From Phycisphaerales bacterium (GTDB taxonomy: Bacteria; Planctomycetota; Phycisphaerae; Phycisphaerales; SM1A02), in NCBI GenBank assembly GCA_029242715.1, contig JAQWTL010000032.1, forward strand, positions 1 through 64,000: a stretch of 64,000 nucleotides of DNA, given 5' to 3'. A program made the translations under genes and the position numbers. The notes below the pieces were generated by a model that saw only the letters and a list, made by a program, of their open reading frames with translations, did no database searches and had not been told where the DNA came from. Shown here piece after piece: positions 58,391 to 64,000 of the stretch (positions are counted from its first letter, which is position 1; each line of letters opens with the position of its first letter).

Positions 58391-58965
58391 GGGGTCGACG
58401 CTGGATCGTGATCGGTGTCATCTGCCTCTTGACGGCATTGTTGATCGTCATTGTTGGTGTGTGGCTTTCGATTTCGCGTTTCAACCTGCAGCAGGTGGTC
58501 ATGCCCGGGAGCGTGGAGTTCGAGATGGACACTCCTGGTCCCTTCTATCTCACGTATGAACCCAGAACGAATCTGAATGGAACCTGGTACGTGTCTCCGG
58601 TGGAATCAAGGATGACTTTCGAGTTGGTGTCACTTGATGGAGCACCGGATGCCATCATTGAAGCACCGTTGGTGGCAGCCAACTACAGCTTCATTGGCAG
58701 GCACGGCCATTACATCGGCAAGGCAGAACTGGATGCCGGGCTCTGGAGACTCACAGGCAGTACGCCACCTGGTGATGACCATTCCGGGGTGTATGCCTTT
58801 GGTCGGACTTCCATTACGGCGGTCGTCATACCGGTTCTGGCAGCGGCCTTTGCTGCAGCCCTGCTTGGCCCTGTGGGGCTTGGCCTGCTGATTGTTGGCA
58901 TCATCCTGCATGTTCATGGCCGGAAGCGGGCAAGACGAGCTTCCCAGCCCCCGCCTGAGGGGTAG
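58387..58965 (+). CDS. Membrane protein with external beta domain (192 aa), unknown
   Basis: This protein has an N-terminal span (WIVIGVICLLTALLIVIVGV), an extracytoplasmic beta-rich domain (VVMPGSVEFEMDTPGPFYLT; RMTFELVSLDG; DAGLWRLTGSTPPGD) and two hydrophobic helices near the C-terminus (VVIPVLAAAFAAALLGPVGL then GLLIVGIILHV), ending in a basic tail. I do not recognise a family. The ATG overlaps the nrnA stop, and the next gene starts 34 bp later, so it belongs to the same operon. Confidence 0.72.
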   Translation: MRGRRWIVIGVICLLTALLIVIVGVWLSISRFNLQQVVMPGSVEFEMDTPGPFYLTYEPRTNLNGTWYVSPVESRMTFELVSLDGAPDAIIEAPLVAANYSFIGRHGHYIGKAELDAGLWRLTGSTPPGDDHSGVYAFGRTSITAVVIPVLAAAFAAALLGPVGLGLLIVGIILHVHGRKRARRASQPPPEG

Positions 58966-58999
58966 ACTTGAGTGCACTCTCCGCTCTCCGAAAGTCGAC

Positions 59000-60790
59000 A
59001 TGACAGATCAGCAACAACAAGACATCGCTCGCATCATCAGTATCGTTCTGCGTCGTGAGAGGTTGAATGCAGGGCTCAATTGGTTCTGCATGGCCTGTCT
59101 CTACATTGCGGTTCTGGCCGTCCTGCTCGCCATTGTTGATCGTCTGGGCTCGCAATCCTGGGTGCCCTGGAATTGGCTGGTCATCGTGATGGGCAGTGTG
59201 GCGGTAATCGCCGGTGTGGCCGGTTGGTGGTTGAAGCAACCGGAGCCACTTCGTGCGGCACGAAGAGTGGATGAACGGCTGGGTCTCAAGGACCGGTTGT
59301 CATCAGCACTCGCATGTGGTCAGAGCAAGGAACCATTTGCAAGAGCAGTTGTCGAGGATGCCGTCACTGTCGCAAGATCACCACAGACCAGAGAGCAGGT
59401 GCGACGCCGTTTTCGCCTGGCACCTCCTCCATTCTGGTGGGCGTCGCCTTTGCTTGTTCTCTCTGCTCTCGTGATTGCTCTGTTTGGGCAGTGGGACGTG
59501 TTCTCGGCCAGCGAGGTTGACACGGTCGACCTCAAGCAGGTGAGAGCCAATGCGGCCGAATCCGTGGAGGCCTCTGTTGAAGCGATTCGAGAGGATCCAC
59601 AACTCTCCGAAGCGATGGCCGAAGTGCTCGAAGAGTTGGAAGCACGGACGGATGCTTCTCTTGAGGAAAAACAGAACGAGGAATCCATACGTCGCGAAGC
59701 GCTGAAGCGACTGACCGAGCTCAATAAGAATCTCGAGACTATCGTCGAAGGTCCGGAAGGCCAGGCAATGGAATCCGTGAAGGAGTCCCTGGAATCACTT
59801 GAAGCACCAGAAGACAGTCCCATCAAGAATCTTGTGGACTCCCTTTCCAAAGGGGATTTCGATCAGGCGCAGCAATCACTGTCAAAGCTTCAAGAGAAGA
59901 TCGATTCAGGCGAATTGTCGGAATCGGAACGCAAGCAGATTGCCGACGCAATGGAATCGCTCTCTGAACAGTTGGACAAGAAGGCCGATGACCAGCAGCC
60001 CATGCGGGATGCGCTCAGGCAGGCAGGGATGGATCCGGAGCTTGCGAATGATCAGGAAGCTTTGAAAGAAGCCCTTGAGCAGTCCAAGGATCTCAACGAA
60101 TCTCAGAAGCAGAAGTTGACAGAAAAGGCCGAGGCGAATGATCAGGCCAAGAAGATGCTCGAGGATTTCTCAGAGGCTTCCAAGGAGGCTTGCAAGCAAT
60201 GCCGCAACGGGCAGAAGGGTGATCAGAATTCCAGCAGTTGCAAGGGCATGTCGGACCAGCTGGGCAAGATGCAGCAGCAGGAACAGATGCTTGAGAAAGC
60301 CAAGGATGCTCAAAGTGCTTGCCAGAGTCAATGCAACAAGATTGGCCAGGGCCTGGCGAAGCAGTCTGCAGTCAATGCTGCAGGGCCGAAGGGAGAGTCG
60401 GGCAAGGGCGACTCCGTTGGCATGAGCCAGACCGAGACCAGCACTGTTGCCAAGCAGGACAGCGGGGAAGTGGGGGATGGCCCTGTTGTATCTCGTGAAT
60501 CGGTTGATCGTGACCTTGATGTCGGTGAATCTACGATGACTCTTCGTCAAGCTCAGCAGGCTGCCAGTGAAGGATTCGATGAAGCCCTCAATGATGCTCC
60601 GCTACCACGGCAGTATCACGACGCGCTCAAGAACTACTTCAGCAATCGTGAGGCTGTAGAAAAGGCGATTGAGGCGGATGCCGAGGCCAGCAAGGACAAG
60701 GCTGTGAACACGCCCTCTGACAAAGCGAGTCAGAAAAAGGCCGAGTCCGGAAAGGACGAAACCAAGGGTGAGGCTGGTGGCAAGAACTAG
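59000..60790 (+). CDS. Two-span membrane protein with long acidic coiled-coil domain (DUF4175-like)
   Basis: This 596-aa protein has N-terminal spans (WFCMACLYIAVLAVLLAIVD; WLVIVMGSVAVIAGVAGWW), the segment ARRVDERLGLKDRLSSALAC typical of DUF4175-like proteins, and a third span (FWWASPLLVLSALVIALFG). The rest is a highly charged, Gln/Glu/Lys-rich coiled coil with a central Cys-containing patch (KEACKQCRNGQKGDQNSSSC, about 395-420; further Cys at SACQSQCNKIG). It is likely a structural or signalling partner of the membrane; DUF4175 proteins often accompany MoxR/VWA systems, not seen here. The start ATG at 59000 follows the previous stop by 34 bp. Confidence 0.7.
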   Translation: MTDQQQQDIARIISIVLRRERLNAGLNWFCMACLYIAVLAVLLAIVDRLGSQSWVPWNWLVIVMGSVAVIAGVAGWWLKQPEPLRAARRVDERLGLKDRLSSALACGQSKEPFARAVVEDAVTVARSPQTREQVRRRFRLAPPPFWWASPLLVLSALVIALFGQWDVFSASEVDTVDLKQVRANAAESVEASVEAIREDPQLSEAMAEVLEELEARTDASLEEKQNEESIRREALKRLTELNKNLETIVEGPEGQAMESVKESLESLEAPEDSPIKNLVDSLSKGDFDQAQQSLSKLQEKIDSGELSESERKQIADAMESLSEQLDKKADDQQPMRDALRQAGMDPELANDQEALKEALEQSKDLNESQKQKLTEKAEANDQAKKMLEDFSEASKEACKQCRNGQKGDQNSSSCKGMSDQLGKMQQQEQMLEKAKDAQSACQSQCNKIGQGLAKQSAVNAAGPKGESGKGDSVGMSQTETSTVAKQDSGEVGDGPVVSRESVDRDLDVGESTMTLRQAQQAASEGFDEALNDAPLPRQYHDALKNYFSNREAVEKAIEADAEASKDKAVNTPSDKASQKKAESGKDETKGEAGGKN

Positions 60791-61820
60791 TCCCGGCTTT
60801 TTCGTGCACCTTCTGATTCTGCTGCCGCTCGTGGGCTGTGAACATTCAGATCCACCTTTGGTTGTGTATGTTTCCGCGGATGAATACGTAGCTCGTCCTG
60901 TTCTCGATGCCTTTTCAGAGAAGACGGGCATACCAGTGCACATGGTTGGCGACACGGAGGCGACCAAGACGACGGGGTTGGTCGATCGCATTCGTGCTGA
61001 ACGCAACATGCCAATTGCAGATGTCTTCTGGTCTTCAGAAGCCTTCATGACCATTGAATTGGCACAGGAGGGGCTGCTCCAGCCCTGCAATACAAATGTC
61101 ACGGAAGAGTGGTTCACGGATTGGCGAGATCCCTTGAAGCAGTGGTTCGGTTTTTCGCCCAGGCCTCGAGTACTGGTCTACGATCCGGAGCGAATGGCAG
61201 AAGAAGATGTTCCTGTTTCGTTGGAATTGCTTGCGGAGCCACGTTGGCGTGACCAACTGGTCATGGCTGATCCACGATTTGGCACGACAGGTGGACATCT
61301 TGCCGCCTTGAAGTCCTGGTATGACTCACAGGGCTCACTGGATGGCTACGGCGAATTCCTGTCCGGTCTTGCAGCGAACCGGATGAGAGTCTTGCCTGGG
61401 GGAAATGCAGCAGTTGTGGATGAGATTCGTTCAGGCCGAGCATTGATTGGCCTGACGGATGCGGATGATGTGCGAGCAGCGAACCGGCTCGGCGCCGGGC
61501 TGTCCATGCGATATGTCGGTCCGATCGAAGGTGTCGGGACGTTCATGATGCCCAATACCGTTGCGGTGGTAGCGGGATCACGTCATCCAGCTGCCGGTGA
61601 CTTTGTTGACATGCTCCTCTCTGAAGAAACGGCTCGCCGTCTGGCCGAATCTGTTTCTGGAAATGTGCCACTGGATCCGGCGGTTGCCTCGGATTATCCG
61701 GAGTTGATTGTGCCCACCTCCATGCCGGTTGATTTTCAAACGACTGCCAACGAGTACCCACTGGCGATTCGAATGGCCGTGACATCTCTTCAGGATCGAG
61801 CGCCTGATGCTGCGCCGTAG
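60768..61820 (+). CDS. Iron(III)-type ABC transporter substrate-binding lipoprotein (FbpA/AfuA family)
   Basis: This 350-aa protein has a signal ending LLILLPLVGC, a good lipobox, with Cys as the first mature residue. The mature domain follows the periplasmic binding protein class D pattern: LVVYVSADEYVARPVLDAFS, GDTEATKTTGLVDRIRAERN, ADVFWSSEAFMTIELAQEGL, RRLAESVSGNVPLDP. The family binds ferric iron; the usual pair of ligand tyrosines cannot be assigned with confidence. The start is GTG at 60768, overlapping the upstream gene by 23 bp. The permease frame begins 14 bp before its stop. Confidence 0.88.
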   Translation: MRLVARTSPGFFVHLLILLPLVGCEHSDPPLVVYVSADEYVARPVLDAFSEKTGIPVHMVGDTEATKTTGLVDRIRAERNMPIADVFWSSEAFMTIELAQEGLLQPCNTNVTEEWFTDWRDPLKQWFGFSPRPRVLVYDPERMAEEDVPVSLELLAEPRWRDQLVMADPRFGTTGGHLAALKSWYDSQGSLDGYGEFLSGLAANRMRVLPGGNAAVVDEIRSGRALIGLTDADDVRAANRLGAGLSMRYVGPIEGVGTFMMPNTVAVVAGSRHPAAGDFVDMLLSEETARRLAESVSGNVPLDPAVASDYPELIVPTSMPVDFQTTANEYPLAIRMAVTSLQDRAPDAAP

Positions 61821-64000
61821 CATGACCGGATTGGTCATCCTGCTGGGTTTGGTAGTTGTCGCCTGGCCCTTTCTGGCCATGGTCCTTCAATCTACTTCAG
61901 GCGAAAGCGGTGAATCACTGGTCATGCATGACCCGTGGACGCTCACTGTTCGAACAGTTGCCTGGTCACTGGGTATTGCAGTCGGTGCCATGTTGATCGG
62001 ATGGCTGCCCGGTCAGGCATTGGGTGTGAGCATGCAACGCCAAAGGAACAGGTGCTTGCCAGGGAATCGAGTCAAGGGATTGGGTTTCCCCGTCCTCCTG
62101 GCGGCGATCCTTCTGCCATTACTGATTCCTTCCTATGTCCTCTTCTATGCATGGTGGCAGACCTGGCCATCTGGAAGTTGGTTGTTTGATGCGCTTCAGC
62201 AGCGGGATTCCATCGGTCTGGGCCGCCGCTTTACGCTTGCCATGGCCTTGTTGTCCTGGTCCTGGCCGTTGGTGAGTCTGTGCGTGGCGCCTGCAGCAGC
62301 CACGTGGCCAAGATCACGTGGGGACCAGCTTGCCTCTGATGGCGCTTCAGTCTGGCAACGTGGCATGGCCAGGTTTCATCACGATCTTGGTGGATTGCTC
62401 CTTGGTGGTTTCCTTGTTGCAGCGTTCATCTTCGGTAACGTGATCTGCTTTGACCTCGCTGGTGTATTCACGGTTGGAAACGAGATGCGTGCGTTGGCAG
62501 CCATGCAGGCGGATCCTGCGCAGATGATCGTGGTATCACTGCCAGCTGCGGTCGCCGCCATCCTTGGCGCCACGATCACATGGTGTGCCATGGGGCGACC
62601 AGTTGATGATGCCTCCATGCCCTTGAATGCAAACAGGCCGCTTGTTCTGGTGGCCACGTCATTGATCTGGAGCGTGACGGCTCTGGTACCGTCCATTCTG
62701 ATCATCACGAATCTTGATAGCAAAGCATTTGAACTGTGGGCAGCGCATGGACCAGCGATTGCAAGGGATGCCTTGCATGCGATCATTCTTGGTGTTCTGG
62801 TCTGCATTGTGTTCTTTGGTCTTCTCCATTTGCTTCGAGCTCCCACAAAAGCATGGAGAGGTGTGGGGGTATTCATCTCGATCCCATGGATTGTGATGTT
62901 GCTGGCACCAGGCTCATTGGTTGCTGCAGCCATCCTTGCAGGCATTGCCATGTTGCCTTCTTCGAGTGTTCAGGGGTGGTTGCTTCGAAGCGGGGCCGCG
63001 TTGATCATCGGCTGGCTGGCGAAGTTCGGCGGGATTGCGGCACTCGTAGCTCGCTGGGTCTGCAGATCTGAACCAGTTCCGCTCCAGGATCTCCGACGCA
63101 TGCATGGAGGTGGTTGGCACACAGAAGGGCCACGAACCTGGTTTGCAGCTGCAGCAGTCACCGTGATAACCGCCTTGTTGGCATTGGGGGAGATCCCGAT
63201 CTCGATGAGATTGTCGCCCCCGGCATCTTCTCCTCCCTTGAGCGTGACCCTTCTCAATGCGATGCATTACCAGCGGCCGGAGACCGTCATCGCAGTCCTG
63301 GCGATGCTCATCATCATTGGTGTCATTGTGGCGTTCGCAATTGGCTTGCTCGCGCGTGGCGGCTTGAAATGGGGACGCTCCACAGGGGGAATGACGGCCT
63401 GCTTGCTTCTCTGCTTTTCGATGATCACGATGTTCGGATGCTCAGAGTCAGAGTCAGATGTGCCCGTACTTGATGTCAAGGCAGTGATCGGTGGACCAGG
63501 TCGTTCAACGGGACGGTTCGATTACCCCCGGGCGATGACGGTTGATCAGAACAACGGTGACATCTACGTCGTTGAAAAAAGTGGACGTGTACAGCGACTG
63601 GATGCCAGTGGTCATCCGTTGGCAGACTGGATGATGCCACGAGTCGAACGTGGACGACCCACCGGGATCAGTCTCGGGCCCCAAGGCAATGTCTGGGTTC
63701 CAGATACGCACGAGCACCGTGTGATGATCTATACGCCAGACGGAGAATTACTCAAATCGTTTGGCAGTTATGGCGAAGGGCCGGGTCAGTTCATCTACCC
63801 AACGGATATCGCATTCGGTCCTGATGGAATGGTCTACGTATCTGAATACGGCGGCAATGATCGCATTCAGGTCTTTACCCAGGATGGTGAGTGGGTCAGG
63901 ACGCTGGGGGGACCAGGTGTTGGCCCAGGTTTCTTTGACCGGCCACAATCGATCGTGATGGGAAGTGATGGGCAGACTCTGCTTGTGGCAGATTCACGAA
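61807..64000 (+). CDS. ABC transporter permease fused to an NHL beta-propeller (partial, runs off the window)
   Basis: An uninterrupted frame from ATG 61807 (alternative 61822) to the right edge, over 730 codons. Residues 1-520 have about twelve hydrophobic spans and look like a FbpB/ThiP-type iron ABC permease. Without any stop follows a thirteenth span, MTACLLLCFSMITMFGC (from 63391), and then an NHL-type propeller (RFDYPRAMTVDQNNGDIYVV; GQFIYPTDIAFGPDGMVYVS; FFDRPQSIVMGSDGQTLLVA). An even number of spans puts the permease C-terminus inside; the extra span would export the propeller, and its Cys resembles a lipobox. No ATPase gene is visible; it may lie beyond the edge. Confidence 0.8.
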   Translation, partial: MLRRSMTGLVILLGLVVVAWPFLAMVLQSTSGESGESLVMHDPWTLTVRTVAWSLGIAVGAMLIGWLPGQALGVSMQRQRNRCLPGNRVKGLGFPVLLAAILLPLLIPSYVLFYAWWQTWPSGSWLFDALQQRDSIGLGRRFTLAMALLSWSWPLVSLCVAPAAATWPRSRGDQLASDGASVWQRGMARFHHDLGGLLLGGFLVAAFIFGNVICFDLAGVFTVGNEMRALAAMQADPAQMIVVSLPAAVAAILGATITWCAMGRPVDDASMPLNANRPLVLVATSLIWSVTALVPSILIITNLDSKAFELWAAHGPAIARDALHAIILGVLVCIVFFGLLHLLRAPTKAWRGVGVFISIPWIVMLLAPGSLVAAAILAGIAMLPSSSVQGWLLRSGAALIIGWLAKFGGIAALVARWVCRSEPVPLQDLRRMHGGGWHTEGPRTWFAAAAVTVITALLALGEIPISMRLSPPASSPPLSVTLLNAMHYQRPETVIAVLAMLIIIGVIVAFAIGLLARGGLKWGRSTGGMTACLLLCFSMITMFGCSESESDVPVLDVKAVIGGPGRSTGRFDYPRAMTVDQNNGDIYVVEKSGRVQRLDASGHPLADWMMPRVERGRPTGISLGPQGNVWVPDTHEHRVMIYTPDGELLKSFGSYGEGPGQFIYPTDIAFGPDGMVYVSEYGGNDRIQVFTQDGEWVRTLGGPGVGPGFFDRPQSIVMGSDGQTLLVADSR

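Follow-up and report, generated by a model that had tools for sequence, protein, structure and literature searches.

A Phycisphaerales ABC permease gene continues in frame through a conserved internal lipobox into an NHL propeller and may encode a precursor split by signal peptidase II

Does a gene in which an ABC permease runs without a stop codon into a lipobox and an NHL beta-propeller encode one protein or two? This question is raised by the end of a 64,000-nucleotide stretch of Phycisphaerales DNA (the window), which opens a contig of 107,521 bases. An earlier note, made from the letters of the window, had described a permease of about twelve spans that continues, past a further hydrophobic segment with an internal lipobox, into an NHL propeller in the same frame, and had suggested a polyprotein-like design. 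Frame 1 of the forward strand indeed has no stop codon from the ATG at 61807 to the window end at 64000, and extending the contig, as the note had advised, closes the open reading frame (ORF) at a stop codon that ends at 64314 (window numbering) on the same contig, so that permease and propeller are joined in one open frame of 835 residues. Along this fused ORF (61807..64000 within the window) we distinguished, in order and all on the forward strand, an FbpB-type ABC permease (residues 1-521; 61807..63369), a segment resembling a lipoprotein signal (residues 522-545; 63370..63441) and a propeller (residues 546-835; 63442..64000 in the window, running on to the stop at 64314).

The window belongs to a draft assembly of 46 contigs, and a sequencing or assembly error that erased a permease stop would produce such a frame. 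We regard this explanation as having next to no chance of being right: the fused frame is open and homologous across nearly its whole length in all five other congeners searched, which also argues against a chance ORF, and the fusion recurs in CP070772.1 (L062), a record titled as a chromosome, and in 30 of the 37 genomes of the family to which the window belongs. With these fused relatives at hand, an assembly artefact was ruled out as the cause. The other seven family genomes comprise two with split genes (G008 and G028), one in which contig ends interrupt the locus (G016) and four without a permease match (G015, G019, G030 and G032). Fusion is thus the rule in the family, and the finding that had been named as fatal to the idea, homologues always encoded as two genes, did not occur.

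Beyond the family, 24 further genomes of the order gave eight fusions and 16 cases without a full-length match. A genome scan yielded 455 matches to the fused query, and the fusion is present in all of the best 80, which we kept; this uniformity is partly an effect of selection, because the 80 loci are the best matches to a query that was itself fused, and the 37 family genomes are the less biased sample. By their titles, the 80 loci come from Phycisphaerae or Phycisphaerales, Sedimentisphaerales and less specifically named Planctomycetota, and a few seem misassigned; in one of the loci (L125) the permease begins in another frame. Among 248 genomes of the class, 134 had a match, paralogues counted. 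Twenty class regions were taken, 19 of which had shorter frames, and these showed a separate propeller gene adjoining the permease in eight, a fusion in one (L166) and no propeller within the stretch in 11. Two fused permease-propeller genes occur in a single genome, G180 (on C79 and C29; L138 and L166). At another locus (L213 in G277) a von Willebrand factor A (vWA) gene lies directly 3' of the permease and no propeller is present in the stretch, an apparent natural loss, on account of which the propeller may be dispensable in that genome. We found no treatment of the permease-lipobox-propeller architecture in the titles and displayed abstracts of the open-licence literature.

The identity of the permease half emerged only with a family profile. 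On its own this half has no Pfam match, the per-family Pfam list for the 38 members of a first alignment holds no permease model, and a PDB search with the single permease sequence returned one match, at an E-value of 0.45, that we discarded. By contrast, a profile built from 44 relatives matches 9j4r_A, the permease (FbpB) of the ferric importer FbpBC of Thermus thermophilus, with an E-value of 3.2e-19 over positions 22-513 of 516. The predicted model that we used is that of an orthologue (L050) 67% identical to the window protein. Its mean pLDDT is 91.2, and it contains, by our count of the listed helices, 12 long ones in the permease, then a short one at 525-540 and the propeller, which bears out both the span count and the additional hydrophobic segment read earlier from the window. 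The junction (521-550) is the weakest stretch of this model, and residues 540-547 are the sole stretch with a pLDDT below 50. Alignment of the L050 permease with 9j4r_A gave a Z-score of 29.5 and an rmsd of 3.9 for 468 aligned of 490 residues. In its full-length homology, its 12 spans and the fold of the model, the permease half thus agrees with FbpB. It differs in that its cytoplasmic EAA-type loops retain the glycine and not the two alanines in the alignment, and in that its C-terminus continues into a lipoprotein.

For the other half, Pfam NHL matches the fused protein with an E-value of 7.5e-20 and is found in all 38 members of the first alignment, and the L050 propeller model matches the NHL domains of the eukaryotic proteins Thin and TRIM71 with Z-scores of 37-38 (up to 38.2). 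Both repeats and fold therefore identify a six-bladed NHL propeller, of which the earlier note had read at least three blades. Two stretches of it are nearly invariant, D-T-H-x-H-R at residues 633-638 (63703-63720) and E-Y-G-G-N-D-R at residues 680-686 (63844-63864), and a ligand-binding or catalytic face at these stretches is possible. At one locus (L085:7710-12770, end approximate) the propeller frame continues further into the vWA gene, giving an open frame of 1687 residues.

Between the two halves, residues 522-545 consist of the end of a basic stretch, a hydrophobic run and an MFGC lipobox; residues 529-545 read MTACLLLCFSMITMFGC and end at Cys545 (codon 63439..63441, forward strand). The cysteine is kept in all 81 fused rows (the 80 kept loci and the window), preceded at position -1 by Gly (65 rows) or Ala (16 rows), and the 12 residues preceding the uncharged run carry a net charge of +2 to +5 in every row. 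Since the rows were chosen as the top matches of a fused query and include many that are related to one another, they do not amount to 81 independent tests. The uncharged run ahead of the cysteine has a median length of 17 residues (range 12-25), compared with 25 for the longest uncharged run of TM12 in the same proteins and 15.5 for the neighbouring binding lipoproteins (68 of 78 ORFs with a recognised lipobox), and on this basis the junction segment looks closer to a lipoprotein signal than to a permease span. A strict PROSITE-like lipobox expression matches only 54 of the 81 rows, partly because 17 rows have Pro at -2. A basic n-region, a hydrophobic stretch and a small residue followed by Cys are therefore present throughout, and what sets the fused proteins apart from ordinary lipoproteins is the position of the signal, at residues 522-545 of 835; it is N-terminal only in the separate-gene relatives. 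A gene for signal peptidase II (LspA) is found in all 37 family genomes, and one for Lgt in the genome of the window itself.

In class loci with permease and propeller as two genes, the propeller carries its own signal and lipobox in 10 of 10 cases inspected by eye (Gly-Cys in eight, Ser-Cys in two); the two genes may overlap by ATGA at one such locus (L042) and are about 4 kb apart at another (L039). On a permease tree the fused or split state needs five changes, some separate-gene rows lying at the base under the rooting used and further ones being nested among fused rows. The tree is a quick one that has long rows and leaves 30 forks open, and the basal placement is unsure because the two outgroup rows do not fall on one side of a branch. 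Judging from these sequences, genes seem to pass between the fused and the split state with the lipobox retained, which is what identical mature products would lead one to expect.

A second kind of fusion, met in other families, places the lipobox behind a cytosolic protein. An ABC ATPase and an NHL propeller share one frame in 14 of the 23 loci examined and do not in the other nine, most of the 23 having been picked for long open frames. All 14 (L241:2958-4904, L242:3680-5653 and 12 more among L250-L261) have Gly-Cys in an internal lipobox between the parts, Pfam ABC_tran and NHL were both found in the five scanned, and several of the genomes are single-contig assemblies (e.g. G350, G561 and G307).

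The permease fusions differ from the FbpB importer in that no cognate-type ATPase was found in the cluster. A profile built from three outgroup cluster ATPases gave no hit among the 10,103 ORFs that the 80 fused loci contain, flanks of up to 8 kb included; a regular expression likewise found none there, but it overlooks divergent signatures like the ones in the fused ATPases. Two ATPases elsewhere in the genome of the window (L181 and L188) score best with the profile, and an ATPase may be supplied to the fused permease in trans. Further downstream on the contig, at a distance of about 11.5 kb, lies another ATPase, which was set aside as a partner, the next gene being MlaD-like by eye. Sixteen regions were taken from outside the class or on weak matches, and five of them (L234-L238) have the order permease, ATPase, NHL lipoprotein, with a binding protein in front in four (at L238 the contig ends there) and vWA next in four; the order binding protein, permease, ATPase, NHL lipoprotein thus occurs outside the class. 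Among the other 11, the ATPase is fused to the propeller in L241 and L242 and remains a separate gene upstream of it in L247, L248 has a permease without a propeller, and six (L239, L240, L243, L245, L246 and L249) gave no permease match with the profile. The remaining one, L244 (G553, related only at the level of phylum), has permease and propeller fused, but the frame shifts within the permease. A lipobox scan outside the class found a site in 13 of 14 separate or ATPase-fused propeller ORFs and none in L246. As no cognate-type ATPase was found in the fused clusters, the permease now touches the lipoprotein where the ATPase gene stands elsewhere, and this gene order points to a history of ATPase loss in the fused lineage.

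The main rival to cleavage at Cys545 is an uncleaved tether, in which the 13th segment would serve as a permanent anchor and leave the propeller covalently on the permease. The one continuous frame and the confidence of the L050 model on both sides of the junction would fit such a chain, and importers with extracytoplasmic domains in one chain with the transmembrane domain are known, as outlined for GlnPQ in PMC8025302. An anchor, however, needs no conserved cysteine with Gly or Ala at -1, the junction segment is shorter than TM12, the separate-gene relatives have a lipobox of their own, and the lipobox recurs behind a cytosolic ATPase; we therefore judge the tether unlikely, at roughly one chance in six.

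Less probable still, in our estimate, is that the propeller is made mainly from its own start within the fused frame, for instance the ATG at 63391, as an ordinary lipoprotein. A G-rich run precedes this ATG almost without spacing, and in the 14 ATPase fusions a start codon lies 13-32 codons ahead of the cysteine in all 14, versus 8-11 of 14 in six control windows; starts with a Shine-Dalgarno (SD)-like sequence number 6 versus 0-5, and ATG alone 3 versus 0-7, so that the excess of start codons is weak. In the 81 permease fusions, on the other hand, a start is present in 74 versus 58-75 across six control windows, ATG in 39 versus 18-43 and an SD-like sequence in 20 versus 12-20, and with no enrichment over the controls we rejected internal initiation as a general route. 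The position of the start moreover varies among the congeners compared, L051 having no ATG there, and internal initiation would leave unexplained why, of the 32 family genomes whose junction is informative, 30 have no stop between the two parts.

We thus favour the interpretation that the gene most likely encodes a precursor which is split by signal peptidase II into a permease and a lipid-anchored propeller, a reading that we consider probable from the sequences compared and that is supported by the cysteine in 81/81 fused rows, the lipobox in 10/10 separate-gene propellers, Gly-Cys in 14/14 ATPase fusions and LspA in 37/37 family genomes. The polyprotein-like design suggested in the earlier note gains support from the conservation of the internal lipobox across relatives. 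According to this scheme, ribosomes would translate the 12-span permease, with both ends inside, and then the lipoprotein signal, which would insert as a short 13th span and export the propeller; Lgt would lipidate Cys545 and LspA would cut ahead of it. Two mature proteins would result from one translation product in a 1:1 supply, a permease that ends in a short additional helix, and a lipid-anchored NHL propeller that presumably acts beside the transporter. As to origin, an importer cluster of binding protein, permease, ATPase and NHL lipoprotein may have lost its ATPase gene in this lineage, after which the permease frame would have run into the adjoining lipoprotein gene with signal and lipobox kept.

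Known fusions resemble this arrangement in part. OpuA-type importers, like GlnPQ, carry an extracytoplasmic domain on the same chain as the transmembrane domain; here the fused domain is instead an NHL propeller, set off from the permease by a conserved lipobox, and the binding protein has a gene of its own. The cytochrome b/c1 (fbcH) precursor of Bradyrhizobium, a signal peptidase I case, likewise derives a polytopic and an exported protein from one gene by a split at an internal signal peptide, whereas the site here is of the signal peptidase II type.

The earlier note had spoken of an ABC iron permease. Directly upstream, overlapping the permease start, lies a substrate-binding lipoprotein (SBP_bac_6; 60768..61820, forward strand), and a binding protein occupies this place in 64 of the 68 fused loci for which 1.3 kb or more of upstream sequence is available. 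Its best PDB match is a ferric binding protein (E 7.4e-18) and its best NCBIfam match is PhnS2 (E 1.8e-15, below the model cut-off). Iron is bound through a pair of tyrosines in the iron-binding homologues. At the position of this Tyr-Tyr pair, Asp-Asp is found in all 78 fused-group rows and in 32 other rows (110 aligned), which gives no support to iron as the substrate. Of the earlier label, the FbpB-type fold and family of the permease are borne out, and iron is not; "ABC" holds for the permease, and no cognate-type ATPase was found in the fused clusters.

Upstream of the binding protein is a membrane/coiled-coil protein (58892..60790, forward strand; the true start may be further in), with which a conserved cluster begins: coiled-coil protein, binding protein, permease-NHL fusion, vWA, MoxR, DUF58 and BatA, spanning 58892-64000 in the window and reaching about 71309 on the contig. 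Long flanks extend to either side of 43 fused loci. At 42 of these the coiled-coil protein, the binding protein, vWA and MoxR are all present, and at 41 DUF58 and BatA make the cluster complete; L074 lacks DUF58 and BatA only. At L112 the fused gene lies outside the usual cluster, with none of the neighbour genes within about 8 kb. In Pfam the MoxR of the cluster matches AAA_3 and, less strongly, bpMoxR (E 1.6e-14). MoxR-vWA-beta-propeller ternary systems are a known class, as summarised in PMC7159879, and the likeness is one of gene neighbourhood, in which genes for a MoxR ATPase, for vWA proteins and for a propeller come together; unlike in those systems, the propeller here is predicted to be extracytoplasmic and is tied to an ABC importer module.

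A wider proposal, which we offer tentatively and think possible rather than probable, is that Planctomycetota evolved at least twice polyprotein-like ABC importer subunits (permease::lipoprotein and ATPase::lipoprotein) that are split by signal peptidase II at a retained lipobox, and that the permease lineage lost its ATPase and its module serves a MoxR-vWA machine, perhaps as a receptor and not a transporter. The conserved cluster in any case joins an ATPase-less importer module to a MoxR-vWA system. Provided that the internal site is cut, a lipoprotein signal could work away from the N-terminus, and a lipobox that follows a 12-span protein or a cytosolic ATPase could serve to divide a polyprotein. 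Lipoproteins of this sort would escape gene callers and signal predictors restricted to N-termini, and the two kinds of fusion, together with their separate-gene relatives, form a natural test of the acceptance of internal sites by LspA.
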